48,936 bases of DNA. Origin: Anaeromicrobium sp. Its GTDB lineage: Bacteria > Bacillota > Clostridia > Peptostreptococcales > Thermotaleaceae. Where the stretch lies: assembly GCF_025210435.1 (NCBI RefSeq), contig NZ_JAOART010000103.1:1-48936 (forward strand), in the 5' to 3' direction. The translations under genes and the position numbers were made by a program. Positions 18,454 to 31,342 of the stretch are shown in pieces. How positions within the stretch are numbered: position 1 is the stretch's first letter; each line of letters begins with the position of its first letter. The notes beneath the pieces are model-generated. The model saw nothing but the letters and a program-made list of their open reading frames with translations. It had not been told where the DNA came from and searched no databases.

Positions 18454-20664
18454 ATGAAACTCAATAAATTAAAATATTTTATTCTATTAGGTATAGGAAT
18501 TCTTTTATTGACCGGTTCTATCATATATTTTAGATATGAAAGTTATAAGGAAGATATCCTATTAAAAACGGAGAATACTTTAATAGAAAGTTCTCAGAAT
18601 TATTCTTTATTCATGAAAAATATAATAGACCCATTAAAGGCCCTTGTTGAAAACACAGGAAATTTAGTAGTTGAGTCCCATCCTAATAGTCCTGATAAAG
18701 TTAAATTGATTTTTAAGGATATTATAAATGAAGTACCTCTCATATCTTCCATGTACTTTGTAAGGGAAGAGGATGGTAAAATGATAGAAAGTGGAAAAGG
18801 TTCTAATAGTACTGTGGATTTAAGGCAGAGGCCCTGGTATATAGACTCTAGCCTTTCAGAAAGAACTACCATAATACCCGTATATAAGGATTTGTGTAGT
18901 GAAAAGCCTGTTATAACTTTATCCTATCCCGTAAGAAAAGATGGTGATTTAAAAGGAGTAATTGCAGCAGATATATTATTAGAAGATTTTTATAAAACCT
19001 TCAGTACTATAACATGTAGAGAAAATGTAGTTCATTATATAGTCGATATAAAAGGGGCTATTGTACTTCATCCAAATAAGAGATTATTAGGATTTTCCAT
19101 GCTTAATCCTCAAAAGAACTATGTGGACCAAATTTCTAATGAAGAAAAAAATAGGGTAAAAGATCATATGAAAGTTTGGAATGAAAATAAGGAAAATATA
19201 TTAAAATTCCATCTAGATGAAATATCCTATGATGCTACTAGAGAAAGAAAAGTATATGGATATTTTCTTAAAATTCCTGAAACAGATTGGACAATCATAA
19301 GTGGTATAGATTATAAAAAAGTAAAAAGTCATAACCGTATATACTTAATAGAAGCATTAGGCTTTACAGGAATTATTTTAATGGGTCTATTAATACTCAT
19401 ATACTTTGTATTTACTAAAATATATGATATAGACGATTTAACAGGCATATATAAGAAAAATAAGCTTCTAGAAGTTTTGAAAAAACAATCCAAGGAAGGA
19501 AAAAAAATAATTCTCTTTATGGATATATATAATTTTTCAGCTATAAATGGAAATTATGGTAGTGAAGTAGGTAATATAATCATCAAGGAATTAACAAATA
19601 TATTAAGAGATCATTTAGATGAACATGGCTTATTAATCCATTCTAAAGCAGATGATTTTATATTTTTATTTCACACAGAAGATTGGCAGGAGGCTCTTAA
19701 AAAGGCAGAAGTACTTAATGAGAAATTAAAGGGATTAAATATAGAAATAAATGAGATAAATATAAACATTAATGTTTTTTTAGGTTTAATAAAATTAAAT
19801 CCACTAGAAATGAAGGATTTAGATACATCCATATTATTAATAGAAGATACTTTAAAACAATTAATGAAAACTAATGAAAAGAGTTTTTGGATGTTCCCTG
19901 ACTCCCATGAGCTGATTAATATGAAAAAGGATAAGGATAAGAAAAAAGAAGAATTATTAAAGGCCATGGAAGAGGATAGAATCCTTCCGTTTTTTCAACC
20001 CATATATAATATAAAGGAAAATAAAATTGAAAAGTATGAAGTCCTTATGCGTATTAAGGATGGAGATGATTATCTATCACCCTTTCCATATATAAAGGTG
20101 GCAGAAGAAAACAATGTAATAGAAAAGTTAGACTTAATAGTAATAGAAAAGGCCTTAAAATATAAATGCAAAGTAGATTCTAAAGATAAAATTAAACTTT
20201 CTATAAATGTTTCAGGAAGGGACTTAAATGATTCAAACTTTTTGCCTAAAGTAGTTCTTTTAGCAGATGAATATGAAATAAAATACCAAAATCTAATATT
20301 TGAAATTACAGAGACACAAAACATAAAAAATATGGACCGATTGGTACATACAATACATGCATTTAAGAAATTGGGCTTTAAATTTTCCATAGATGATTTT
20401 GGAACAGGATTTTCTTCTATGCAATATTTAAAGCGTATTCCAGCAGATTATTTGAAAATAGATGGGTCTTTTATAAGGGATTTAAATGAAAATGAAAAAA
20501 ATCTATATCTTGTAAAATCCATTGTGAGTATGGCGAAGGCATTTGAAATGACTGCCATTGCAGAATTTGTGGAAAATGAAAAAATATTGAAGGTACTAAA
20601 AGAAATAGGAATAGATTATGGACAGGGCTATCATATAGGAAAGCCAAAGGGATTTTTTGTTTAG
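18454..20664 (+). CDS. Cache-GGDEF-EAL protein, predicted c-di-GMP phosphodiesterase
   Basis: A 736-residue membrane protein. A signal anchor at residues 8-27 is followed by an extracellular Cache-type sensor (about 30-290, with LRQRPWYIDS and GVIAADILLEDFY), a second membrane helix near 300-320, a GGDEF domain (330-480) and an EAL domain (495-735). The GGDEF signature is degenerate, reading HSKADDFIF, so cyclase activity is unlikely. The EAL domain keeps its catalytic residues: the Glu of YEVLMR, Asn of SINVSG, Glu of FEITET, the Asp pair in IDDFGTGFSS, Lys of LKIDGSFI, the Glu of AEFVE, and Gln in YGQGYHIGKP. It should degrade c-di-GMP in response to an outside ligand. It sits just upstream of a c-di-GMP riboswitch. 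Confidence 0.92.
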   Translation: MKLNKLKYFILLGIGILLLTGSIIYFRYESYKEDILLKTENTLIESSQNYSLFMKNIIDPLKALVENTGNLVVESHPNSPDKVKLIFKDIINEVPLISSMYFVREEDGKMIESGKGSNSTVDLRQRPWYIDSSLSERTTIIPVYKDLCSEKPVITLSYPVRKDGDLKGVIAADILLEDFYKTFSTITCRENVVHYIVDIKGAIVLHPNKRLLGFSMLNPQKNYVDQISNEEKNRVKDHMKVWNENKENILKFHLDEISYDATRERKVYGYFLKIPETDWTIISGIDYKKVKSHNRIYLIEALGFTGIILMGLLILIYFVFTKIYDIDDLTGIYKKNKLLEVLKKQSKEGKKIILFMDIYNFSAINGNYGSEVGNIIIKELTNILRDHLDEHGLLIHSKADDFIFLFHTEDWQEALKKAEVLNEKLKGLNIEINEINININVFLGLIKLNPLEMKDLDTSILLIEDTLKQLMKTNEKSFWMFPDSHELINMKKDKDKKKEELLKAMEEDRILPFFQPIYNIKENKIEKYEVLMRIKDGDDYLSPFPYIKVAEENNVIEKLDLIVIEKALKYKCKVDSKDKIKLSINVSGRDLNDSNFLPKVVLLADEYEIKYQNLIFEITETQNIKNMDRLVHTIHAFKKLGFKFSIDDFGTGFSSMQYLKRIPADYLKIDGSFIRDLNENEKNLYLVKSIVSMAKAFEMTAIAEFVENEKILKVLKEIGIDYGQGYHIGKPKGFFV

Positions 20665-20769
20665 GTAAATAAAAAATGGTTACATTACTTACCTATGAAT
20701 ATGGGCATTTATGCCGATTGAAGATTCTATAATCAATTGATATAATAAAATGAATATATAAGAAATTGT

Positions 20770-20912
20770 TTGATAAGGGCAAAGCTGATGAAAATTAGTG
20801 CCCCAAAGCTATAGGGACTAAGGTTTCCACGAAAAACTATGTTTGCCAGCTACCAAACATGGGAAAAGTCCCTGCTTTCGTATTTACCAATGAGGATGAA
20901 AGGGGGCTTTCT
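20770..20912 (+). promoter_or_regulatory. c-di-GMP-I riboswitch upstream of the TadG-like gene
   Basis: The aptamer spans about 20772-20855. It begins with GGGCAAAG, then a CTGAT-GAAA-ATTAG hairpin whose GAAA tetraloop is the standard tetraloop of this class. CAAAGCTATAGGGACTAAGG is nearly identical to the class core, and it closes with GCCAGCTACC. The position where CGCAAAG is usual reads CCCAAAG. The downstream platform has CTTTC (20876-20880) that can pair with GAAAG next to the GGGGG ribosome binding site of the gene at 20915. This suggests control of translation rather than termination. Confidence 0.85.
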
Positions 20913-20914
20913 GA

Positions 20915-21991
20915 ATGCTCACAATGAAGAACTTTTTTAAAAGTCAAGATGGTGGAGCGATGGTTTTATTTACACTTTTTTTGATGGTGCTTCTTTGTAT
21001 GGCCGGATTAGTTTTAGATAGTGGACTTTTGTATGTGACAAAATCCCATCTCCAAAAAACAGCCAATGCAGCTGTTTTATCAGGTGCACAGGAACTAAAT
21101 AGTAATAATAATGAGGTTGAGACAATTGTAAACTATATTCTATTAGAACACAGGGAACTTGGAAGTTTAGACAAACTTGAGTTTCTAGAAGATAGAAAAG
21201 TAACAATTTATTTAACTAAGGAAGTGATACCGCCTTTTCGTAGATTATTTGGCATTGAAAAGGTACCTGTATCAGTTAAGGCATCGGCGGTTTTAATGGG
21301 TTCTACAAATAGTTCAATATTTGATTATTTGATTTTTTCTGAAGATCCAAATAAAACATTTTATGTTTCAGGGTCTAAAAATAAATTTAATGGAAAGGTT
21401 CATATTAACGGGTCATCAGAAATTTCTGGTAGTGATAATAAATTTAATGATATATATGAATATGTTAAGAAAATTAAGGTTAGTGGTGGAAATAATAAAT
21501 TTCCAATGGGTAAGGAAAAATCAGTTTATATGGATATTTTAGATTTGAGTAAAGATGAATATAAGGCAAAAGCAACAATCATATACAATGGAAAGAAGAC
21601 ATTTTCAAAGAGCAATACAAAAGTAGATGGCATAATATACGTGGATGGGGACGCAATATTTTCTGGAGGTCATATAAGTGGAGAAGGTACAGTCTTTGCT
21701 ACAGGGGATATAATATTAAGTGGTTCTAATTTAAAGTACAAATCTGAAAATGATTTAGTGGCCTTTTATAGTTTAAAAGATATTGAAATTCCTGGCAGTG
21801 ATGGAGAGTTTCATGGACTCTTTTATGCACCTAATGGAAATATTAAATTAAATGGAAGTAAAAATATCATTAAGGGGTCTTTAATTGGAAAGGAATTTGA
21901 ATCTATTTCCGGGTCTGAGCTAAATCTAGTTTATGATGGGAGATATAAAGAAACCCTTTCTGAAGATTTTAAAATAAAATTAGTGAAATAA
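20915..21991 (+). CDS. TadG-like surface protein with polymer-forming (bactofilin-like) repeats
   Basis: A 358-residue protein. Residues 5-60 form a TadE/TadG-type N-terminus: GGAMVLFTLFLMVLLCMAGLVLDSGLLYVTK has a single membrane helix, followed by the 'K-T-A-N-A-A-V-L-S-G-A' helix seen in Flp pilus-assembly TadG proteins. Residues 150-335 hold glycine/serine-rich beta repeats such as VSGSKNKFNGKVHINGSSE, GSDNKFND and ISGSELN, like the beta-helix of bactofilins and DUF7305-type tails. It is probably an extracellular pilus-associated or adhesive component. It lies downstream of its own c-di-GMP riboswitch and converges on the Tad operon. Translation from the ATG at 20915 uses the GGGGG site in the riboswitch platform. 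Confidence 0.75.
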   Translation: MLTMKNFFKSQDGGAMVLFTLFLMVLLCMAGLVLDSGLLYVTKSHLQKTANAAVLSGAQELNSNNNEVETIVNYILLEHRELGSLDKLEFLEDRKVTIYLTKEVIPPFRRLFGIEKVPVSVKASAVLMGSTNSSIFDYLIFSEDPNKTFYVSGSKNKFNGKVHINGSSEISGSDNKFNDIYEYVKKIKVSGGNNKFPMGKEKSVYMDILDLSKDEYKAKATIIYNGKKTFSKSNTKVDGIIYVDGDAIFSGGHISGEGTVFATGDIILSGSNLKYKSENDLVAFYSLKDIEIPGSDGEFHGLFYAPNGNIKLNGSKNIIKGSLIGKEFESISGSELNLVYDGRYKETLSEDFKIKLVK

Positions 21992-22042
21992 ATTGTCCAG
22001 AAATAAAGGTCTAGACTTCCTTTTATTTCTGGACAATTCCTT
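21991..22042. terminator. Bidirectional terminator between the TadG-like gene and tadC
   Basis: AATTGTCCAGAAATAAA (21991-22007) pairs with TTTATTTCTGGACAATT (22022-22038). It ends both convergent riboswitch-controlled transcripts. Confidence 0.88.
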
Positions 22043-22070
22043 TAGTAAATAACGTATAAAATCATAAGAA

Positions 22071-22958
22071 TTATTTGTTAAAGGTATTAATAAATTGAAT
22101 GACAGCTGGACCTAAGAGAACTATAAATAGACTTGGAAAAATGAAGAAAACTAGAGGGAAAAGCATTTTAATGGGAGCCTTCATGGCTTGTTCCTCTGCC
22201 CTTTGTTTTCTTTTTTCTCGAATTTCCTGGCATTGTATACGAAGAATTTGAACCATACTAATTCCCAGTTTTTCAGCTTGTAATATGTTGCTGATTAAAA
22301 TATTCATTTCATCTAAAGGGAGTCTTTCTGTTATTTTTTTCAAAGCTTCCCTTCTGGGTTTCCCTAGGCGAATCTCTTCTAAGCATTGGTGAAATTCACT
22401 AGCTATGACTCCGTTATTTCTAGAAATCAATTTATTTAGAGCTAAATCAAATCCAAGACCTGCTTCTAAACTCACCGTAAGAAGGTCTACCATATCAGGA
22501 AGTTCCTTTAGGGCACATTTACTTCTTTCTTTAGCTTTCTTTGTTAGATATAAATTAGGAAGAGTTATTGCAAATACTAAACTTAAAGAGATTACTAAAA
22601 ATAACCTTGAAATAGAAAATCTTCCAAGGATTCCATATGTTCCAAAGAATAGGGGAATCAATATTAGGAATATTGTTTGAATTAATCGAAAATCAACAGG
22701 TGTCATATGAAAAGGACTTCCTGCTTGAAGGAGCTTTATTTCTAATTTATTGTGCTTTTCTTGTGATAAATTTTTTCTAAAGTATTTTTTATGCTTTCTA
22801 AGAATTGGATGAAATACTCTTTTTATAAAAGAAGATTTATTTTTCTTATCCTTTGAGAAAGATATTTTTTGTTTTTTCAATCCTTTTTCTCCAGAAATAA
22901 TAGAAAAAAATAGAAGGATTAATAAAGTAATGGTAGAGAAAAAAGTAATATATATCAT
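22071..22958 (-). CDS. tadC: Tad pilus inner-membrane platform protein TadC
   Basis: A 295-residue member of the GspF/TadC family. An N-terminal membrane helix, then a cytosolic GspF domain (KELPDMVDLLTVSLEAGLGF and EFHQCLEEIRLGKPRREAL with GISMVQIL) and C-terminal helices (MLFPLVFFIFPSLFIVLLGP) match TadC. It is last of the minus-strand Tad operon, three bases after tadB, and pairs with TadB to form the membrane platform for Flp pilus extension. Confidence 0.9.
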   Translation of the reverse strand: MIYITFFSTITLLILLFFSIISGEKGLKKQKISFSKDKKNKSSFIKRVFHPILRKHKKYFRKNLSQEKHNKLEIKLLQAGSPFHMTPVDFRLIQTIFLILIPLFFGTYGILGRFSISRLFLVISLSLVFAITLPNLYLTKKAKERSKCALKELPDMVDLLTVSLEAGLGFDLALNKLISRNNGVIASEFHQCLEEIRLGKPRREALKKITERLPLDEMNILISNILQAEKLGISMVQILRIQCQEIREKRKQRAEEQAMKAPIKMLFPLVFFIFPSLFIVLLGPAVIQFINTFNK

Positions 22959-22961
22959 GAG

Positions 22962-23924
22962 CTACACCTCGATTATTGTAATCTTTCGTATTAAAATAAA
23001 ACCAATAAGGGCAGAAAATATTCCCATTCCAACCATAATAAGACCAATACGTTCTTTAAATAAAATAGATATATAGTCTGGATTAATAAAATAAATGGCA
23101 AAGCTTAAAATAATAGGGAGAAGGCCTATAATAAGTCCAGATAGTCTACCTTGAGCTGTAAGAGTTATAACTTGCCGCTGAATGGTATTTCGATCACGAA
23201 TAGTTTGTATAATAATATCTAGAACTGTAGCCAAGTTTCCTCCCACTTGCCTTTGAATTAAAATTGCCTGGACCATAAGCTCAAGATCTCCACTAGGCAT
23301 TCTCTCTTGAAGATTATACAATGCCTCTTCAATATTTCCACCATATTGCATCTCCTTTAGTACAAGGCTAATCTCTTCTTTTATAGGAGAATCTGATTCT
23401 TCCACAACAGATTTTAATGATTGAGGAAAACTAAAACCAGCCCTTAAGGAGCCAACAATAATAGTAATCATATCAGGGAGGCCCTCATTAAATTTTGAAA
23501 GACGTTTATGAAACCTTCTTTTTAATATTAATTTGGGAAACACGTATCCCCAAAATCCTCCTACTATAAAAAATAAAATATTTTCTGAAAAAATATATAA
23601 TAAACTTCCAAAGAATATGGCACCCATCCATCTAAAGAAAATAAATTCTTCTGGCTCTAAGGAAAGGCCAGCTCTGTTTAATAGGGTTTCTAATTTCTCA
23701 TTAGATTTTATGGAGGGAAGTTGATTTTTAAATTTTTCATTTATCAATTGGATTTGAACCATTAGATTAAAATTTTTCTTTTCTAATATTTCTTCCTTAT
23801 CACTTAATAAGTAATCTTTAACTCTTGTTTCAAATCGTCTTTGAGAAAAAAATAATCTATTGAATATTAGTGTAAAAATAATTATTGTGGTAATTAAAAA
23901 CGAAGAAAGAATTATCCATTTCAT
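22962..23924 (-). CDS. tadB: Tad pilus inner-membrane platform protein TadB
   Basis: The start is the ATG at 23924, overlapping the tadA stop as ATGA; AGGAGG lies ten bases upstream inside tadA, too close to the in-frame TTG at 23933. The 320-residue protein has N-terminal helices, a GspF domain (FNEGLPDMITIIVGSLRAGF and LVLKEMQYGGNIEEALYNL with RQVGGNLATVLDII) and two C-terminal helices. The stop/start overlap indicates translational coupling to the ATPase it works with. Confidence 0.9.
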   Translation of the reverse strand: MKWIILSSFLITTIIIFTLIFNRLFFSQRRFETRVKDYLLSDKEEILEKKNFNLMVQIQLINEKFKNQLPSIKSNEKLETLLNRAGLSLEPEEFIFFRWMGAIFFGSLLYIFSENILFFIVGGFWGYVFPKLILKRRFHKRLSKFNEGLPDMITIIVGSLRAGFSFPQSLKSVVEESDSPIKEEISLVLKEMQYGGNIEEALYNLQERMPSGDLELMVQAILIQRQVGGNLATVLDIIIQTIRDRNTIQRQVITLTAQGRLSGLIIGLLPIILSFAIYFINPDYISILFKERIGLIMVGMGIFSALIGFILIRKITIIEV

Positions 23925-25333
23925 AGATTCCAATCCTCCTCTTCTAAGAAGACGCTTGTTGGTATGGTAATACCGCTAGTAGTAAGGGTTTCATAGAATT
24001 TAGGACGAATTCCTGTTGGAACCAATTTACCCATGATTTTTCCATCTTGGTCCACCCCTCGTTGTTTGAAGACAAAGATATCTTGAAGTACGATTACATC
24101 TCCCTCAAGACCTTGAACTTCTGTTATATTAGTAATCTTTCTGGACCCATCTTTTAGTCTTGACTGTTGAACTATTAAATCAATGGCACTTCCAATTTGT
24201 TCTCTTATGGCTTTTACGGGAAGTTCCATACCTGCCATTAAAACCATTGTTTCTAGTCTAGAGATCATATCCCTAGGGCTATTAGAGTGGCCTGTAGCTA
24301 AGGAACCATCATGGCCCGTATTCATTGCTTGAAGCATATCTAATGCTTCTCCACCACGTACTTCTCCTACCACAATCCTCTCAGGTCTCATACGAAGAGA
24401 ATTTCGAACTAAATCTCGGATAGTAATAGAACCTTTTCCCTCAATATTTGGAGGTCTAGATTCTAAGGATACTACATGGTCCTGCCAAAGCTGAAGTTCT
24501 GCAGCATCTTCTATGGTAATTATTCTCTCATCATTGGGAATGAATGAAGAGAGTACGTTTAGGGTTGTTGTTTTTCCAGATCCTGTTCCTCCACTGATAA
24601 ATATATTAAGCTTTGCCTTTACACAGGCTTCTAAAAATATGGCCATTTCCCTTGTAAGGGTACCAAAACTAATTAGATGCTCTATGGTAAACGGGTCCTT
24701 TGAAAATTTACGGATAGTTATGGTAGGACCATTTAATGCCAAGGGTGGAATAATGGCATTTACACGGGAACCATCAGGAAGTCTTGCATCAACCATAGGA
24801 CTGCTTTCATCAATTCTACGACCTAGGGGAGCAACGATTTTTTCTATAATGTGCATTACATGGTCATTGTCTTGAAATTTTATATCCGTTAGCTCTAACT
24901 TTCCCTTTCTCTCAGCATATACCATAGAAGGGCCATTGACCATAATCTCTGTAACCTCTGGATCTAATAATAATGGATTAATTGGACCATAACCTATAAG
25001 ATTATTAACTAACTCAGCTACAATTTTTTTTCTATCTACTAGTCCTAAAAGGGAGTCATCTTCTTTAATGATTTCAACAGCCATTTCATCAATTCTTTCA
25101 ATTATCCTTTCAATTGAATCCTTTTTCATTTCCCTAAGAACTTTTTTATGGAGTTGTTTTTTTAATTCTTCATTTTTATCCTTAGACTTAATAGAATCTT
25201 TTTTCTCTTCTTTAGGAGAATTGTTCTCATTTGAAATATATTCCCCATTATTTTCTGTTTTTTTCTCACATTGAACTGAAGGGGGAGAAGTGGCATTTTG
25301 TTTTTTATTTTTTAATTTTGCTAAAAGACTCAT
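23921..25333 (-). CDS. tadA: Tad pilus assembly ATPase TadA/CpaF
   Basis: A 470-residue secretion ATPase that powers Flp pilin assembly. A charged, low-complexity N-terminal tail of about 70 residues precedes the N-terminal domain (LVNNLIGYGPINPLL with VTEIMVNGP). The motor domain has the Walker A FISGGTGSGKTTTLN, an aspartate box ITIEDAAELQL, the Walker B region RPERIVVGEVRGGEALD, and the histidine box NTGHDGSLATGHSNSP. All catalytic motifs are intact. It lies between cpaE and tadB in the operon. Confidence 0.95.
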   Translation of the reverse strand: MSLLAKLKNKKQNATSPPSVQCEKKTENNGEYISNENNSPKEEKKDSIKSKDKNEELKKQLHKKVLREMKKDSIERIIERIDEMAVEIIKEDDSLLGLVDRKKIVAELVNNLIGYGPINPLLLDPEVTEIMVNGPSMVYAERKGKLELTDIKFQDNDHVMHIIEKIVAPLGRRIDESSPMVDARLPDGSRVNAIIPPLALNGPTITIRKFSKDPFTIEHLISFGTLTREMAIFLEACVKAKLNIFISGGTGSGKTTTLNVLSSFIPNDERIITIEDAAELQLWQDHVVSLESRPPNIEGKGSITIRDLVRNSLRMRPERIVVGEVRGGEALDMLQAMNTGHDGSLATGHSNSPRDMISRLETMVLMAGMELPVKAIREQIGSAIDLIVQQSRLKDGSRKITNITEVQGLEGDVIVLQDIFVFKQRGVDQDGKIMGKLVPTGIRPKFYETLTTSGITIPTSVFLEEEDWNL

Positions 25334-25346
25334 ATATATCTCTCCT

Positions 25347-26099
25347 TTAGGAATCTATTGAAAGAATATCAGCAATATGAAAAATAGATTTTGTAATATC
25401 TTTTCTTCGATAGTCCATTACAAAGGGCATTCCTATATTAATGGACCTTGATACAATTTTAAAATTATTAGGAATATAGAGTAAAGATTCTTTCTCTAAG
25501 ATTTTAGGAACATCCTTTGCTTTTAAAAGACTCTTCATAGTGGAACGATTAACTACAATTTTTACTTTTTCACTTAAATTCAAAGCATCAAATATGGATA
25601 AGATTGATTTTGTGTTTTTCAAGGATGTCATTTCTAAATCTGTTATAAGGAGAATCTCATCTGCTTTTTCAATGAAATGTAGATTATTTTCAGGAAGTCC
25701 TGAAGTTGTATCTATAAGTAAATAATCACAACTATTTAGTAAAAGGGTACAGATTTCATTAAGAGAATCTAGGGTAATTAAATCAGCATATTCTGGGCTA
25801 GGAGGGGAGGGTAATATCTTCACACCACTTTCATGACTAGTAAGGTAAGAGGTAAGAAGATTTTCATTTAATCCATTCATTTGTTCTACGGCATCTTTTA
25901 TTGTGAATTTAGGCATGAGATCCATGACTAAGTGAGTATTTCCAAATTGGAAACAGCTATCTAAAATGATTGTTTTGAATTTTTTTTTAGATAAAGCAAC
26001 GGAAAGATTCGCTGTTATTACAGTTTTTCCTACTCCTCCCTTAGCGCTACAAATTAGGATCATTTTTCCTTTTTTTGTGGTATTATTTTGATTTTTCAT
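25347..26099 (-). CDS. CpaE/TadZ-like MinD-family ATPase
   Basis: A 250-residue P-loop ATPase with the deviant Walker A CSAKGGVGKTVITANL and LIDTTSGLPENN as Walker B. It corresponds to the ATPase half of CpaE/TadZ, which places the Tad machine in the cell; the N-terminal receiver-like domain of Caulobacter CpaE is absent, as is usual in Firmicutes. AAGGGGG precedes its ATG. It lies 12 nt after the cpaB gene and 13 nt before tadA. Confidence 0.88.
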   Translation of the reverse strand: MKNQNNTTKKGKMILICSAKGGVGKTVITANLSVALSKKKFKTIILDSCFQFGNTHLVMDLMPKFTIKDAVEQMNGLNENLLTSYLTSHESGVKILPSPPSPEYADLITLDSLNEICTLLLNSCDYLLIDTTSGLPENNLHFIEKADEILLITDLEMTSLKNTKSILSIFDALNLSEKVKIVVNRSTMKSLLKAKDVPKILEKESLLYIPNNFKIVSRSINIGMPFVMDYRRKDITKSIFHIADILSIDS

Positions 26100-26111
26100 G
26101 ATGAACCCCCT

Positions 26112-26777
26112 TTACTGAAGTTTACTATGAAGAACAAGATGGATATTTCCTCTCTCTTGTGTATTTACTAATTTTACAGCATCACTTTGTGTTAATTCTA
26201 AGGTGACGGAACTATACTCCATATAAGGTTCGTCATTTGTTGATTGGATCATTTTTCTACCAATGGCTAACACACGTGCTCCTTCAAGTATTAGTTCTGT
26301 TCGGACAATCTTTTCATTGTTGCCTGCTTCTATTTCTTCACTAAAGACTACATCTACCATGTCTTCTGGTTCAATTAGATTTGTAACAGATTGAACCATA
26401 TTTACGCCTACTGATACGGCTCTATATCCTTTTTTTATTTTTCTAGACACAAATCGGGTTTCTTCAGCTTGGTTTTGAATATGATGCTTTAAAATAGGTT
26501 CTCCCTTTACCATATTTACTGTGGCTATTTGATTTTCCATTTCTGAAATTTTTTTTATTGTTTGTGGATGAATACTTTTCTCATGGACTTCTTTTAAGGT
26601 TACCATTGATTTTGAAATCTTTTTATTTTTAGGAATATCCTGATTTGCCACAAGAATAGTTGCCATTTTACTATTAGATAACTTTTGTCCTTTGAGCGTT
26701 TCTATGTAGTTATAGAATAAATAAGTTGTAATAAGTGCCATTACAACTGCAAGTGGTAGTATTAATTTGGATCTCAT
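26112..26777 (-). CDS. CpaB/RcpC-like Flp pilus assembly protein
   Basis: A 221-residue protein with one N-terminal membrane helix (LILPLAVVMALITTYLFYNY), a SAF domain (ATILVANQDIPKNKKISKSM with VNMVKGEPILKHHI) and the RcpC/CpaB domain (GYRAVSVGVNMVQSVTNLI then EPEDMVDVVF). In Gram-negatives CpaB works at the secretin. Here there is no secretin, as expected for a single-membrane cell, so it probably guides the pilus across the cell wall. Confidence 0.9.
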   Translation of the reverse strand: MRSKLILPLAVVMALITTYLFYNYIETLKGQKLSNSKMATILVANQDIPKNKKISKSMVTLKEVHEKSIHPQTIKKISEMENQIATVNMVKGEPILKHHIQNQAEETRFVSRKIKKGYRAVSVGVNMVQSVTNLIEPEDMVDVVFSEEIEAGNNEKIVRTELILEGARVLAIGRKMIQSTNDEPYMEYSSVTLELTQSDAVKLVNTQERGNIHLVLHSKLQ

Positions 26778-26872
26778 GTTTTCACCTACTTTACTATATA
26801 TAATTTGAACATTATAGTTTTCAATTGTGTTAAAAAATTAAATATCTAATTTTGTATATGATGTATATAAGA

Positions 26873-27256
26873 TTATTCTACACGAATTGTAGAATTTATA
26901 ATTACTTGGTAGGGAGATGGAAAGAGGGTGGCAAGGAAAGGAGTAACATATGCAACAGGATACTGTAGGGTCACTGTAACATAATCTCCTGATTGCCTTT
27001 GGGATTCATTAGGGGATATCTGTATCTGAAGAAGATCCACATCTCCTATACGTAAATTATCTTGAGCAAAAGTTGTAATTCCTAGATCAGATTCTCCAAG
27101 ACCTCCCATTCGCACTGACTCTTGAGCTATTAGATTAAGATGCATATAGGTATACATTACCCTACCAAAGTCAAAGGTGGCACATATTAAAATTAATAAA
27201 AGAGGTAAAACCAATGCAAATTCAACAAGAGACTGACCCTTTTCACTTTTTACCAT
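26873..27256 (-). CDS. TadE-like pseudopilin
   Basis: A 127-residue protein starting KSEKGQSLVEFALVLPLLLI, the TadE signature: a G-x-S-x-V-E-F cleavage context with glutamate at +5 followed by one hydrophobic helix. The rest is a small extracellular domain (SVRMGGLGE, YVTVTLQYPVAYV). It should be processed by the adjacent prepilin peptidase, whose gene overlaps it by seven bases. The 95-nt gap to cpaB shows no promoter I can support. Confidence 0.88.
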   Translation of the reverse strand: MVKSEKGQSLVEFALVLPLLLILICATFDFGRVMYTYMHLNLIAQESVRMGGLGESDLGITTFAQDNLRIGDVDLLQIQISPNESQRQSGDYVTVTLQYPVAYVTPFLATLFPSPYQVIINSTIRVE

Positions 27257-27771
27257 AGGACAAAACCCCTTTCTAAAAGTAGGTTTATAAGGGCACCTGC
27301 TGCAATGGCTGTTCCGTATGGATAGGTATTAGAAAGGTCATTAGTACTTATTAATGAATGGGGTTTTATACCATATTTTAAACTACATATATGGTAGTAG
27401 AAAGATTTAAGGGTAGTATGGAGCCTTTTTTGAAAAATAAGTAGTATGATGGCTATAAGGCCCCCTATAAGTGCCATATAAATGCTTGTATGAAATACAA
27501 AAGAAGGACCCTTTAAAGCACCGACTAATGCAAGTAGTTTTACATCTCCAGCCCCCATACCTCCTAAAAGGTAAGGAATTAAAAGGATTGAAAAGCCAAG
27601 TAAAAAACCAATAAAGGAAGAATATAAACTTTTAGGCCCAGCCAATAGGCCATGGGATAAAAATCCAATTATAAGACCTGGAAAGATTATTTTGTTATAT
27701 ATTCTTCGCTCCCTTATATCTGTGATAACACAGATGATTAAAATTATGATCATTAAAAAATCAAACCACAT
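27250..27771 (-). CDS. Prepilin peptidase (TadV/CpaA, A24 family)
   Basis: A 173-residue aspartic membrane protease that cuts Flp prepilin and pseudopilins. The two catalytic aspartates are in VITDIRERRIYN (residues 15-26) and GGMGAGDVKLLALVG (about 70-84), the G-x-G-D motif. It lacks the N-methylating domain of PilD, as TadV and CpaA do. About six helices. Its 3' end overlaps the tadE start, so the two are coupled. Confidence 0.92.
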   Translation of the reverse strand: MWFDFLMIIILIICVITDIRERRIYNKIIFPGLIIGFLSHGLLAGPKSLYSSFIGFLLGFSILLIPYLLGGMGAGDVKLLALVGALKGPSFVFHTSIYMALIGGLIAIILLIFQKRLHTTLKSFYYHICSLKYGIKPHSLISTNDLSNTYPYGTAIAAGALINLLLERGFVLW

Positions 27772-27861
27772 ACTATAACCCTTCTTTCATTATATTGAAA
27801 AAATGGCCCGACAATTTAATGTGGGGCCTTTTTATATGATAATAGATTTGTAAAAATATTA

Positions 27862-28019
27862 AGGCATATGAAAGAAATAAACTAGTCAGTTCTCTGAGGA
27901 ATTTGGATTATTTTCAAGGCATGGCGAGCGAGCATATTGAACATATGTAAGCAATTCCATAACGAAGAAAATAATTCAAATAACCAGTGAAATGACTAAT
28001 TTATTTTTTGAATATTCCT
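27862..28019. repeat. 158-bp palindromic MITE-like repeat, copy 2 (inverted)
   Basis: This is the reverse complement of the repeat at 16389-16546, with the same length and roughly nine bases in ten identical by eye. It starts AGGCATAT and ends ATATTCCT. It fills the gap between the flp gene and the prepilin peptidase gene. Its end supplies the TAG stop of flp (28018-28020 on the minus strand). Its hairpin could shield the abundant flp mRNA or attenuate read-through into the assembly genes. Confidence 0.85.
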
Positions 28020-28197
28020 AAGAACCGGCAGGAGGATCAATTGAATCTAGAGTATCTGTAAACATTGCCGTAATTCTAGGACCAAATAAAGCAATAATTG
28101 CAATAACTGCCACAGCAATGGCTCCTAATATAAGTCCGTATTCAGTCATACCTTGTCCCTTTTCCTCAGTGATTAAAGCTTTTAATTTTTTTAACAT
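28018..28197 (-). CDS. flp: Flp type IVb major pilin
   Basis: The start is the ATG at 28197 after AAGGAGTGA; GTG at 28206 is too close to that site. The 59-residue prepilin has a short positive leader (MLKKLKALITEEKG), a cleavage site before QGMTEYGLILG with the +5 glutamate, and one hydrophobic helix (AIAVAVIAIIALFG), then a short tail ending PPAGS. This is the standard Flp architecture. The palindromic repeat begins at its stop codon, so the native C-terminus could have been altered by that insertion. Confidence 0.92.
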   Translation of the reverse strand: MLKKLKALITEEKGQGMTEYGLILGAIAVAVIAIIALFGPRITAMFTDTLDSIDPPAGS

Positions 28198-28214
28198 GTA
28201 TATCACTCCTTCTT

Positions 28215-28568
28215 TTAGGTTTCATCGTTCTTTAACTCAATTGTATTTCCAAATGTAGTTTGGGTATTTTGGATTTTTCCAGCTGGAAGTTCAATGATCT
28301 CAATCGTATGAGGATGGACTTTTCCAATTTTTCCAGGCTGGACATTTTCTTCTATGCCTACAACTTTTCCAGAAGAATCAAGATGTAACACATCAATGCT
28401 GTAGCCCATGAAAAAGGTGTGAATACCTTGGCAGGGTCGAATATAAAGCCCAGAATCAGAAGGTAATTCTTTTGAAAACATGAGTCCTTTTAATCTTTTA
28501 AAGAAAGTATCCGCCATATGAACCTTCTTTGCTAAAATTTTACCATTATCTAGATTAATGAGCTTCAA
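28215..28568 (-). CDS. DUF192 protein, first gene of the Tad operon
   Basis: A 117-residue DUF192 protein. The family core is visible: ADTFFKRLKGLMFSKEL (cutting the 'R-x-x-G-L-M' motif), then GIHTFFMGYSIDVLHLD, and ELPAGKI near the end. DUF192 proteins are small beta-rich proteins of unknown function, usually secreted. Here no signal peptide is evident. It begins 15-20 bases after the riboswitch terminator and lies eight bases before flp, so it is under c-di-GMP control with the pilus. It recurs beside Tad loci in other Firmicutes, as far as I recall. Confidence 0.8.
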   Translation of the reverse strand: MKLINLDNGKILAKKVHMADTFFKRLKGLMFSKELPSDSGLYIRPCQGIHTFFMGYSIDVLHLDSSGKVVGIEENVQPGKIGKVHPHTIEIIELPAGKIQNTQTTFGNTIELKNDET

Positions 28569-28581
28569 TGAAAATTCACCT

Positions 28582-28745
28582 CCTATAAAAAAATTAACCC
28601 TGCCTCTACCGTAAGGAAAGACAGGATCATGATGACTGACTAAGAAGTGCCTATCTACCTTCGGTAACTGGCTGGCATAGTGTATGATACACCTTAGCCC
28701 CTATAGCTTTGCGTCACTGGATTTCACCAGTTTTGCCATTATCGA
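28582..28745 (-). promoter_or_regulatory. c-di-GMP-I riboswitch with terminator, leading the Tad operon
   Basis: Read on the minus strand, the aptamer runs from about 28740 to 28660. It has ATGGCAAA, the hairpin ACTGG-TGAAA-TCCAGT with its GAAA tetraloop, GACGCAAAGCTATAGGG, then CTAAGG, a P2-type arm, and GCCAGCCAGTTACCG. This is a close match to the c-di-GMP-I consensus. A terminator follows: CCTGTCTTTCC with GGTAGAGGCAGG, then a run of T on the minus strand at 28588-28582. c-di-GMP should therefore set transcription of all nine pilus-operon genes. Whether it turns them on or off is not decided by inspection. Confidence 0.92.
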
Positions 28746-28773
28746 GTTTTTGTTGCACTTGATTCTTACTAGA

Positions 28774-28802
28774 ATTATATAATTAGAGAAGATTCTGAAC
28801 AA
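28774..28802 (-). promoter_or_regulatory. Promoter of the Tad operon
   Basis: On the minus strand TTGTTC (28802-28797) and TATAAT (28779-28774) are exactly 17 bp apart. The predicted start, near 28767, is just upstream of the riboswitch aptamer. The remaining bases to the next gene at 29003 hold no feature I can support. Confidence 0.7.
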
Positions 28803-29002
28803 TAGGTCTTGAGGTTTAATTTCGACAAAATAAACATAACATCGACAAAAAATAACAAATATAGAATATTATTACATATATGTGAAAGAGTAGTACTAGG
28901 AACTATTCTCTCTTAGACTTTTAGTACATTATTTTATGAAATAAAAACACAAGAAATATTGCAGATATATACATAAATATGACATAATTAGATAGAGGAG
29001 AA

Positions 29003-31342
29003 ATGAATTTTATTTATTTTTCAAGATTAAATAATGAGTGGGGTGAAGACATACTGATGAAAGCAAAACTTTCATATATTTTATCTATACTTATCTTATT
29101 CATATGTATATTTGTAGCTACAAATGTACATGGAAAAGAATTACAATCAAATTACAATGTGAAAGAAATACGAGTTATTGCAGATGAAGATTTCCCACCA
29201 TATATTTTTAGGGACGAAAAGGGACATTTAAAGGGTATAATTGTGGACCAGTGGCATCTGTGGAGTGAGAAAACAGGAATTAAGGTAAAAATACACGGAA
29301 TGAATTGGAAAAATGCACAGAAATTTATGGAAGAAGGAAAATATGATGTTATAGATACCATGTTTAAAAATGAAGAAAGAAAAAGGAGTTATTATTTTTC
29401 AGACCCATATGCAAAAATTGAGGTACCAATATTTTTTAATAAGAATATATCAGGAATAACAGATATTAAGTCTTTGAAGGATTTAAATGTTGGTATAAAA
29501 AAGGCAGACTGTAATGTAGATTTATTAAGGGAAGAAGGGATTAAGGATTACTTAGAATTTGATACTTATGAATCCATGATAAAAGCTGCAAGAAATAATG
29601 AAATTAATGCCTTTATAATGGGAAAGCCTGCAGCCATGTATTATATGTATAATTATCATATGGAAAAGGATTTTAGATATACTAATCCCCAGTATATAGG
29701 AAAGTTTTACAGAGCTGTGAAAAAAGAGGATACCCACATTCTAAATGCTATTAATGATGGTTTTTCTCAGATAAGCAAATTAGAGTATGAGCAAATACAC
29801 AATAAATGGTTTGGAATTGAATATGAAGGTCACAAATTTATCCTTCATATAAAGATTTTTACTAGTCTAGTTTTAGTCATAGGATGTATTTTAATTATTT
29901 GGAATATTACACTAAAGAAGGCTGTTAAAGAAAAGACCCTAGAGCTTACAAATACAGTAGCCAAGCTTAAAAGAAGTGAAAATAGGATTAATGCAATTTT
30001 TAAGGCCTTGCCTGATTTATTTTTTATTATAGATAAAAATGGTATTTTTATGGATTATGAAGTAAACAATCTTAACAAATTAAAATATAGTCCAAAGGAA
30101 TTTTTAGGTAAATCCATTTCACAAATGTTTAGTGAAGAACTTGCACAAAAGCTTGCGGGGCCTTTACAAGATACTATTAAAACAGGAGATACTCAAATTG
30201 TAGAGTATCTATTGCCAAAGGAAGATGACCCATTATACTTTGAAGCCAGGATTATAAAATATGATGAGGATGTGGCACTGACCATTATTAGGGAAATAAC
30301 AGAGAAAAAACTTTCTGACATGAAAATATATAATATGAGTATAAGAGATGGAATGACAGGACTTTATAATAGAAGCTACTTTGAAAGACAAATGGAAATA
30401 AGAAATGAGAACAAGGATTTAAATCAATGTGTAATAATATGTGACTTAGATGGTCTAAAGTTTATAAACGATACCTTCGGACATGCCACTGGAGATGAAT
30501 ATTTAAAAATAGCTACAGATATAATAAAAGCATGTTTTAAAAATGGTAATAATGTAATAGCTAGGATTGGTGGAGATGAGTTTGGAATTTTAATGGAAGA
30601 TACATCAGAAAAGGAAGTCCTTAATATTAAATCTAAATTAAAGGACATGTTAAAGGAAGTTAATAAGAACAGGGGAATGCCTGTAAGTATTTCATTTGGA
30701 TATTCTATTTCACAGGAAAACAAGAATGATTTAAAGGAAATGTTTAAGGAAGCTGATGCTTTTATGTATAAGGAAAAACTTCATCATAAGCAAAGTTTAA
30801 AGAGCGATCTTTTTAATGTTATTATGAAAATGTTAGAAACAAGAGATTTTATCAGGGAAGGCCATTGTGATAGACTTGAAATACTATCAGCAAAACTTGC
30901 TAAGGCAGTAGGCATGACAGACAATAAAATCCAAGATATTTCACTTTTTTCAAAATTTCATGACATAGGTAAAATTGGTGTTTCAGATAGGGTACTTTTT
31001 AAGACAAAAGAACTTACGGAAGAAGAATTTGAAGAAATGAAGAGACATACGGAAATAGGTTATAGGATTGCCCAATCTTGTCCAGATATTGCCCATATAG
31101 CTGATTGGATATTGAAACACCATGAGTGGTGGAATGGAGAAGGATATCCCTTAGGATTAAAGGGTGATGAAATACCTATTGAATGTAGAATTCTTTCAAT
31201 TGTAGATGCCTATGATGCAATGACCAGTGATAGACCCTATAGAAAGGCTTTAAGTAAAAAAGAAGCAATGGAGGAATTAAAACTTTGTAGCAAAGTTCAA
31301 TTTGATCCTTATTTAGTAGAGGTATTTTTAGGTATACTATGA
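29003..31342 (+). CDS. Periplasmic-binding-domain sensor with PAS, GGDEF and HD-GYP domains
   Basis: Up to 779 residues. The start may be 29003 (GAGGAG but tight spacing) or the ATG at 29057, which begins a clean signal peptide (MKAKLSYILSILILFICIFV); the latter is preferred by domain logic. Domains in order: a bacterial extracellular solute-binding domain (SBP_bac_3; EIRVIADEDFPPYIFRDEKG), a membrane helix near 285-305, PAS, GGDEF and HD-GYP. The GGDEF motif is intact (ARIGGDEFGIL), with DGMTGLYNRSYF before it. The HD-GYP motifs HDIGKIGV, HHEWWNGEGYP and VDAYDAMTSDRPY are intact. It can thus make and degrade c-di-GMP in response to a small solute, probably an amino acid. It lies opposite the riboswitch-led Tad operon. 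Confidence 0.9.
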   Translation: MNFIYFSRLNNEWGEDILMKAKLSYILSILILFICIFVATNVHGKELQSNYNVKEIRVIADEDFPPYIFRDEKGHLKGIIVDQWHLWSEKTGIKVKIHGMNWKNAQKFMEEGKYDVIDTMFKNEERKRSYYFSDPYAKIEVPIFFNKNISGITDIKSLKDLNVGIKKADCNVDLLREEGIKDYLEFDTYESMIKAARNNEINAFIMGKPAAMYYMYNYHMEKDFRYTNPQYIGKFYRAVKKEDTHILNAINDGFSQISKLEYEQIHNKWFGIEYEGHKFILHIKIFTSLVLVIGCILIIWNITLKKAVKEKTLELTNTVAKLKRSENRINAIFKALPDLFFIIDKNGIFMDYEVNNLNKLKYSPKEFLGKSISQMFSEELAQKLAGPLQDTIKTGDTQIVEYLLPKEDDPLYFEARIIKYDEDVALTIIREITEKKLSDMKIYNMSIRDGMTGLYNRSYFERQMEIRNENKDLNQCVIICDLDGLKFINDTFGHATGDEYLKIATDIIKACFKNGNNVIARIGGDEFGILMEDTSEKEVLNIKSKLKDMLKEVNKNRGMPVSISFGYSISQENKNDLKEMFKEADAFMYKEKLHHKQSLKSDLFNVIMKMLETRDFIREGHCDRLEILSAKLAKAVGMTDNKIQDISLFSKFHDIGKIGVSDRVLFKTKELTEEEFEEMKRHTEIGYRIAQSCPDIAHIADWILKHHEWWNGEGYPLGLKGDEIPIECRILSIVDAYDAMTSDRPYRKALSKKEAMEELKLCSKVQFDPYLVEVFLGIL

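Follow-up and report, generated by a model that had tools for sequence, protein, structure and literature searches.

Two class-I c-di-GMP riboswitches, both predicted to be OFF switches, at a Tad pilus operon and a TadG-like gene of Anaeromicrobium sp.

The components of Tad/Flp pili are TadA, TadB, TadC, TadZ, a prepilin peptidase, the Flp pilin, the TadE/G pseudopilins and CpaB. The pilus of Clostridioides difficile to which pilA1 belongs is not known to be of this type, and the pilM riboswitch, which senses cGAMP, is of Geobacter origin. Among the described systems Cd1, which controls flagellar genes in C. difficile, has a class-I aptamer, a terminator that is compatible with this aptamer and an antiterminator that uses an aptamer strand, and it is an OFF switch according to passages of two publications (PMC9262584; PMC6200980). 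Its terminator is given there as T+H and its antiterminator as T+A+H, the latter being transiently stable and refolding to the terminator with time (PMC9262584). In the passages concerned the class-I switches of C. difficile are uniformly OFF; one class-I locus rose with c-di-GMP, its promoter being the cause (PMC6200980). Riboswitch control of a type IV pilus in C. difficile, which an earlier note on the present DNA had mentioned as known, is described in the same source for Cdi-2-4 at pilA1, which however belongs to the other aptamer class (class II) and is ON (PMC6200980). The pilM riboswitch, a relative of GEMM-I with a homologous aptamer and the name of a pilus gene, differs in its ligand, cGAMP, and in its ON logic, as stated in passages of the publication (PMC9262584).

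The locus described here resembles Cd1 in its leader architecture, but it concerns a Tad pilus operon instead of flagella. Its genes are those of the Tad/Flp (type IVc) loci of other bacteria (TadZ, TadA, TadB, TadC, TadE, CpaB, peptidase and Flp, not every gene being matched in each locus). In the literature searched, a c-di-GMP riboswitch before tad genes is mentioned in none of the titles or abstract beginnings, and an earlier mention, for example in a table, is possible. The components are of known kinds; the locus merits testing for their combination, for the predicted OFF sign at a pilus and for the relative that lacks one of the aptamers.

The window, i.e. the whole stretch of 48,936 nucleotides that was analysed (from the genome denoted G000), carries nine genes on the minus strand (28568 to 22071) in the order DUF192, Flp, prepilin peptidase, TadE, CpaB, TadZ, TadA, TadB and TadC (Table 1). 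The earlier note had called this Tad/Flp operon complete. Pfam backs the nine genes, but an internal TadG is absent between TadE and CpaB, and the TadG-like gene lies outside the operon. Its 3' end is only 79 bases from the end of TadC and the transcripts are convergent. In the sister species G001 a gene for a GAF-PAS histidine kinase (L121:5495-7357, minus strand) is situated between TadG and TadC. The arrangement as it had been noted, with two aptamers facing inwards around the Tad operon and the TadG-like gene and with an EAL and a GGDEF-HD-GYP protein on the outside, was recovered with Rfam and Pfam.

Table 1. Features of the riboswitch-associated Tad locus, in coordinates of the window
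Feature	Position	Strand	Basis
dCache-GGDEF(degenerate)-EAL protein, likely c-di-GMP phosphodiesterase	18454..20664	+	Pfam, structure-based motif alignment
Sigma-A-like promoter TTGAAG-17-TATAAT, extended -10, 5' of TadG aptamer	20718..20746	+	10/12 consensus bases
c-di-GMP-I riboswitch aptamer, TadG-like gene	20768..20857	+	RF01051 63.9 bits
AGUCCC, predicted partner of aptamer GGGACU (20814-20819) or of Shine-Dalgarno	20867..20872	+	Folding
Shine-Dalgarno GGGGG, TadG-like gene	20902..20906	+	Sequence reading, folding
TadG-like minor pilin candidate, DUF7305 C-terminal part	20915..21991	+	PF13400, PF23981
TadC	22071..22958	-	PF00482
TadB	22962..23933	-	PF00482
TadA/CpaF motor ATPase	23921..25333	-	PF00437 223.6 bits
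TadZ/CpaE-like P-loop ATPase	25347..26099	-	PF01656 (CbiA), PF13614 (AAA_31)
CpaB/RcpC	26112..26777	-	PF16976 + SAF
TadE	26873..27256	-	PF07811
TadV prepilin peptidase	27250..27771	-	PF01478 (Peptidase_A24)
Flp pilin	28018..28206	-	PF04964 28.2 bits, below cut-off 32.2; homologues syntenic in 6/6 family loci
DUF192 protein, first gene of operon	28215..28568	-	PF02643 66.8 bits
Shine-Dalgarno AGGAGG, first gene of operon	28579..28584	-	Sequence reading; region conserved in leader alignment
Intrinsic terminator hairpin before U tract; 5' arm + loop (28625-28607) = antiterminator 3' strand	28594..28629	-	-18.7 kcal/mol; sequence conserved across family
Aptamer 3' strand UUACCGAAGG then GAUAGG, doubling as antiterminator 5' strand	28650..28667	-	Predicted duplex with terminator loop
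c-di-GMP-I riboswitch aptamer, tad operon	28660..28747	-	RF01051 82.2 bits
SBP_bac_3-PAS-GGDEF-HD-GYP protein, both motifs intact	29003..31342	+	Pfam, structure-based motif alignment

Both leaders scored well over the gathering cut-off of 35 bits when the Rfam c-di-GMP-I model was applied as the earlier note had proposed. The matches cover positions 1-87 of the 87 model positions (E 9.1e-15 for the operon aptamer and 2.7e-10 for the TadG aptamer), and they are the sole Rfam matches at gathering score in the window; the genome of 3.96 Mb contains five RF01051 matches, these two included. The near-invariant core motifs, among them GACGC, are intact in the operon aptamer. TadB was present in 7 of the 17 family genomes, and in all seven an RF01051 match of the same orientation precedes it by about 4.6 to 5.5 kb; in an eighth genome, G014, an aptamer and a TadG match share one 5 kb contig. 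An aptamer at the tad operon was found, at Rfam gathering score, in all eight family genomes in which tad genes were found. As judged from these matches, the two aptamers are genuine members of the c-di-GMP-I family, with c-di-GMP as their presumptive ligand. By analogy with Geobacter sulfurreducens, for which passages of one study report that 12 of 17 GEMM-I riboswitches bind cGAMP (PMC8835794), the ligand here could be another cyclic dinucleotide.

In all eight family leaders, which are related and whose agreement is not independent, the 5' arm and loop of the operon terminator can pair with the aptamer 3' strand UUACCGAAGG and a distal arm; in most of them this arm and loop read CCUGUC..UUUCCUUxCGGUA. 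The core of the predicted antiterminator pairing is UUACCGAAGG:CCUUACGGUA, whereas the distal arm is made, on reading the sequences, by differing pairs, namely GAUAGG:CCUGUC in six leaders, AGGG:CCCU in G014 and GGGU:ACCC in G005. Per leader, the strength of the antiterminator duplex was matched by 0 to 6 of 500 shuffles. In a rough control with the other family aptamers, 2 of the 21 with a detected terminator had a duplex equalled by at most 15 of 300 shuffles; six more of these 27 aptamers were without a detected terminator, and the finder missed or misplaced four of the eight tad terminators (L122, L123, L124 and L125). A simple pattern scan for terminators yielded 10, not clearly above chance (shuffle mean 7.2, sd 2.9), and the tad terminator was absent from its list. 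GAUAGG:CCUGUC alone had been taken as the antiterminator and is superseded, being now one part of the longer pairing; an extended P1 (AAGUGC:GCACUU) was dropped, as it is conserved in closer relatives only.

Folding of transcripts that end just short of the terminator 3' arm gave an antiterminator probability of 0.99-1.00 in the eight leaders when the RNA was free. With P1 forced at the same length, the antiterminator fell to 0.00 in five leaders, 0.10-0.23 in two and 0.62 in one (G014). Once the terminator 3' arm was present and P1 was forced, the terminator had a probability of 1.00 in 8/8 leaders. At equilibrium without ligand, the full-length leader still preferred the terminator in seven of the eight; therefore, antitermination must be kinetic. 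The architecture of Cd1, known here from its published description as a terminator compatible with the aptamer and an antiterminator that takes the aptamer 3' strand, was found in every one of the eight leaders. On these models the operon leader is predicted to be an OFF switch at high c-di-GMP with a logic like that of Cd1. The ligand-bound aptamer would retain UUACCGAAGG, the terminator would form and the nine tad genes would remain untranscribed. Without ligand, UUACCGAAGG would pair with the terminator 5' arm and loop, and the resulting antiterminator would allow read-through of the operon. On sequence reading, L122, L123, L124 and L125 share an inverted repeat, ACCTATTGTTAGGT, 5' of the tad leader, where it overlaps the presumed -35 region of the tad promoter; G000 and G001 no longer have its right half.

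Adhesion is usually favoured by high c-di-GMP, and the operon switch might conversely be ON, c-di-GMP raising the Tad pilus as the class-II switch does at pilA1. In passages of the published work the pilA1 transcript of C. difficile goes up with c-di-GMP (PMC6200980), and the homologous pilM aptamer forms part of an ON switch (PMC9262584). However, the aptamer and terminator of pilM are, as described there, mutually exclusive, whereas here both can form together, and in 8/8 leaders the structure incompatible with the aptamer is the antiterminator. We regard ON control of the operon as quite unlikely and retain the OFF prediction.

The TadG-like protein consists of a TadE/G-like 'Tad' domain and DUF7305. 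Its predicted structure was poor (mean pLDDT 44.8, two sequences), residues of about 211-330 having block means of 53-91. The promoter region of its gene is conserved in G001 and recognisable in G008, although sigma-A-like sites as a class were not above shuffles (61 versus a mean of 69.7). P1 of the leader is UGUUUG/CAAACA, and the downstream AGUCCC has two alternative partners, GGGACU in the aptamer and the GGGGG Shine-Dalgarno. With P1 forced, pairing of AGUCCC with the Shine-Dalgarno reached up to 0.93 in the window and 0.73 in G001. The unconstrained anti-aptamer pairing was 0.67 in the window versus only 0.12 in G001. In G001 the Shine-Dalgarno was unpaired at 0.23-0.86 per base in the free RNA and, with P1 forced, at 0.03-0.08 for four of the five bases and 0.76 for the first. 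The corresponding values in the window were 0.04-0.19 and 0.00-0.03. Because the Shine-Dalgarno of the window is mostly paired in both states, this switch may be weak. The models predict an OFF switch by masking of the ribosome site, with a weak effect in the window: the formed aptamer would free AGUCCC, which would sequester the Shine-Dalgarno and block translation. Two different platforms, as the earlier note had seen them, are supported by folding, a terminator on the operon and sequestration of the ribosome site on TadG. A differing response of the two transcripts, as the earlier note had suggested it, is not reflected in the predicted sign, which is OFF for both; thresholds may differ.

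The TadG leader of the window might also be a decaying remnant that is blind to the ligand, leaving the operon leader alone functional. In its aptamer the near-invariant GACGC is replaced by GCCCC, where the TadG aptamer of G001 is regular (77.2 bits), the predicted shift in exposure of the ribosome site is small, and the relative G008 has the same gene without any aptamer. Against this, the aptamer of the window still scores far above the cut-off, and its leader has the P1 region, GGGACU, AGUCCC and the promoter region in common with that of G001. Such decay seems unlikely to us, if worth keeping in mind, and a working OFF switch at TadG is the preferred interpretation.

The computed aptamers, gene content, conservation and mutually exclusive predicted structures make it probable that the Tad pilus regulon is under two class-I riboswitches, both OFF, and that in vivo the Tad pilus would be made at low c-di-GMP. 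If the OFF sign holds, a Gram-positive Tad pilus would be switched off by c-di-GMP, the sign being that of flagella and opposite to that of the C. difficile type IV pilus; the genome has two flagellin matches. Low c-di-GMP would fit a role of Tad pili as an organelle of early surface contact, as passages on Caulobacter describe it (PMC13234629), and not as a biofilm anchor. PprB of P. aeruginosa had been considered as a parallel for the making of Tad pili when c-di-GMP is low, but the literature passages do not show this.

Among the family genomes, only those from the genus of the window (G000 and G001) yielded a TadG aptamer. A TadG of the DUF7305 type was matched in these two and in G008 only, among 17 family genomes; outside the family there were at least five weaker matches with 28-35% identity. 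An internal TadG lies between TadE and CpaB in five of the six other 20 kb family loci (G005, G007, G008, G009 and G013), the exception being G001. The gap without TadG measures 95 bases in G000 and 105 bases in G001. The ordinary TadG inside the tad operon of G008 (43% identity over the N-terminal part) is present in addition to the DUF7305-type gene, and the idea that the TadG gene is a relocated operon gene was dropped, as G008 has both copies. Although promoter and start regions are recognisable 5' of the DUF7305-type gene of G008, an aptamer is absent there, the two RF01051 matches of this genome being on other contigs; nor was an EAL match found within the 18.4 kb around it. A FastTree tree calculated from 41 aptamers places both TadG aptamers together with the eight of the tad operons (support 0.872); a separate clade made up of these eight alone has a support of just 0.376.

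The three genomes are compatible both with the insertion of an operon-aptamer copy in the genus and with a loss in G008. Our tentative proposal, which we hold possible but doubtful, is that the TadG aptamer is a transposed operon riboswitch, inserted downstream of the promoter of a second TadG gene and ahead of its 5' UTR when the genus lost its internal TadG, and that the terminator platform was rebuilt as masking of the ribosome site with the OFF sign kept. If so, the shaft and motor and the candidate tip subunit of one pilus would share one signal. The TadG leaders of G000 and G001 versus that of G008 constitute a natural pair with and without riboswitch for the same gene, which makes gain or loss of the riboswitch directly testable.

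For tad loci beyond the family, the search relied on a covariance model made from 32 of the family's aptamers. Most of the sampled Tad loci differ from the present one in lacking an aptamer: among 80 named CpaF loci, which are the best 80 of a longer list, six carry one upstream in the orientation of tad and 74 carry none. The six are Fredinandcohnia, Neobacillus muris and four MAGs labelled Bacillota, Firmicutes, Clostridia or Clostridiales; two of them have two aptamers. Among the 35 tad loci from 34 genomes of the same order, four had an upstream aptamer on the tad strand and 31 had none, the two sets sharing at least one contig that is negative in both. A weak aptamer match in L126 (23.2 bits, E 0.024) was discarded. 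Tad leaders from outside the family do not share one type of platform. By these sequence searches, riboswitch control of Tad is recurrent but not general. A DUF192 gene, the first gene of the operon in the family of the window, lies at most 1.5 kb 3' of TadC, in the same orientation, in 47 of the 108 loci with a TadC match, and it looks like a frequent member of Tad operons. Passages of one publication place a DUF192 gene in a Tad operon of Bulleidia (PMC12786226).

Domain and motif content confirmed the membrane phosphodiesterase candidate and the solute-sensing GGDEF-HD-GYP enzyme that had been noted at the two ends of the locus, as dCache-GGDEF-EAL and SBP_bac_3-PAS-GGDEF-HD-GYP proteins; their activities are presumptive. 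In the first, the motifs E(V)L, N, EITE, DDFG, K, EFVE and Q, which we take to contain the catalytic residues, align with solved EAL domains, and the protein is likely a c-di-GMP phosphodiesterase. Its GGDEF site reads KADDF and departs from the signature; for this reason the cyclase half is probably dead. In the second, the GGDEF signature is present, and the HD and HHE...GYP motifs were aligned with 4mcw.

The two enzymes might set a local c-di-GMP pool that is sensed by the two riboswitches. The EAL gene is the neighbour of TadG in G000 as well as in G001, the GGDEF-HD-GYP orthologue of G001 is on the same contig at about 10.5 kb from the tad leader, and in G013 a different GGDEF/HD-GYP match just past TadC lends mild support. 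However, the orthologue in G001 carries an in-frame stop, and the EAL orthologue of G013 is on a contig other than that of the tad locus. In G007 the GGDEF-HD-GYP orthologue is some 580 kb from tad, and no EAL match was found in the 20 kb tad region of the other five family genomes. Each flanking enzyme has a comparably strong match in 3 of the 17 family genomes, that of the window included. No Rfam match lies 5' of either enzyme gene, and the genome has 19 GGDEF and 8 EAL matches, while c-di-GMP diffuses. A match to a c-di-GMP enzyme (GGDEF, EAL or HD-GYP in the retrieved stretch) occurred in 4 of 17 aptamer-bearing tad loci versus 11 of 105 others, in a count over 122 loci with unequal stretch lengths, the window being counted whole and G014 left out.

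A local pool of this kind is very unlikely in our estimation, and the closed c-di-GMP circuit of the earlier note is not upheld, with neither enzyme gene under an aptamer, many other c-di-GMP enzymes in the genome and a linkage at the level of the genus. Its proposal to look for the gene order elsewhere gave a divided answer: the operon aptamer recurs at tad, but the two enzymes accompany tad in the genus alone. The proximity of the enzymes to tad looks like a neighbourhood peculiar to the genus rather than a circuit that has been conserved. If the EAL protein next to TadG is active, it would lower c-di-GMP and favour the pilus as one of many turnover enzymes, outside any closed loop.

Other c-di-GMP-I aptamers were met in the two genomes of the genus. 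One in G000 (C68:5881-5966, minus strand; L002/L198) has no same-strand ORF of at least 90 aa close behind it; a weak terminator-like stem lies 3' (-5.3 kcal/mol), and beyond it comes an SbcC-like gene in the opposite orientation, 3' end first. It may be an orphan, a remnant or an antisense-acting element. In G001 an aptamer (C25:23364-23451, minus strand) is found directly 5' of the gene for an HD-domain protein (L197:5216-6232, minus strand; PF01966, 46.3 bits) and is possibly a feedback switch if this protein is a phosphodiesterase. A further aptamer in G000 (L004:1501-1579, plus strand) stands 5' of the gene for a transglutaminase-like protein (1561-2385, PF01841) that adjoins a sortase gene (PF04203).
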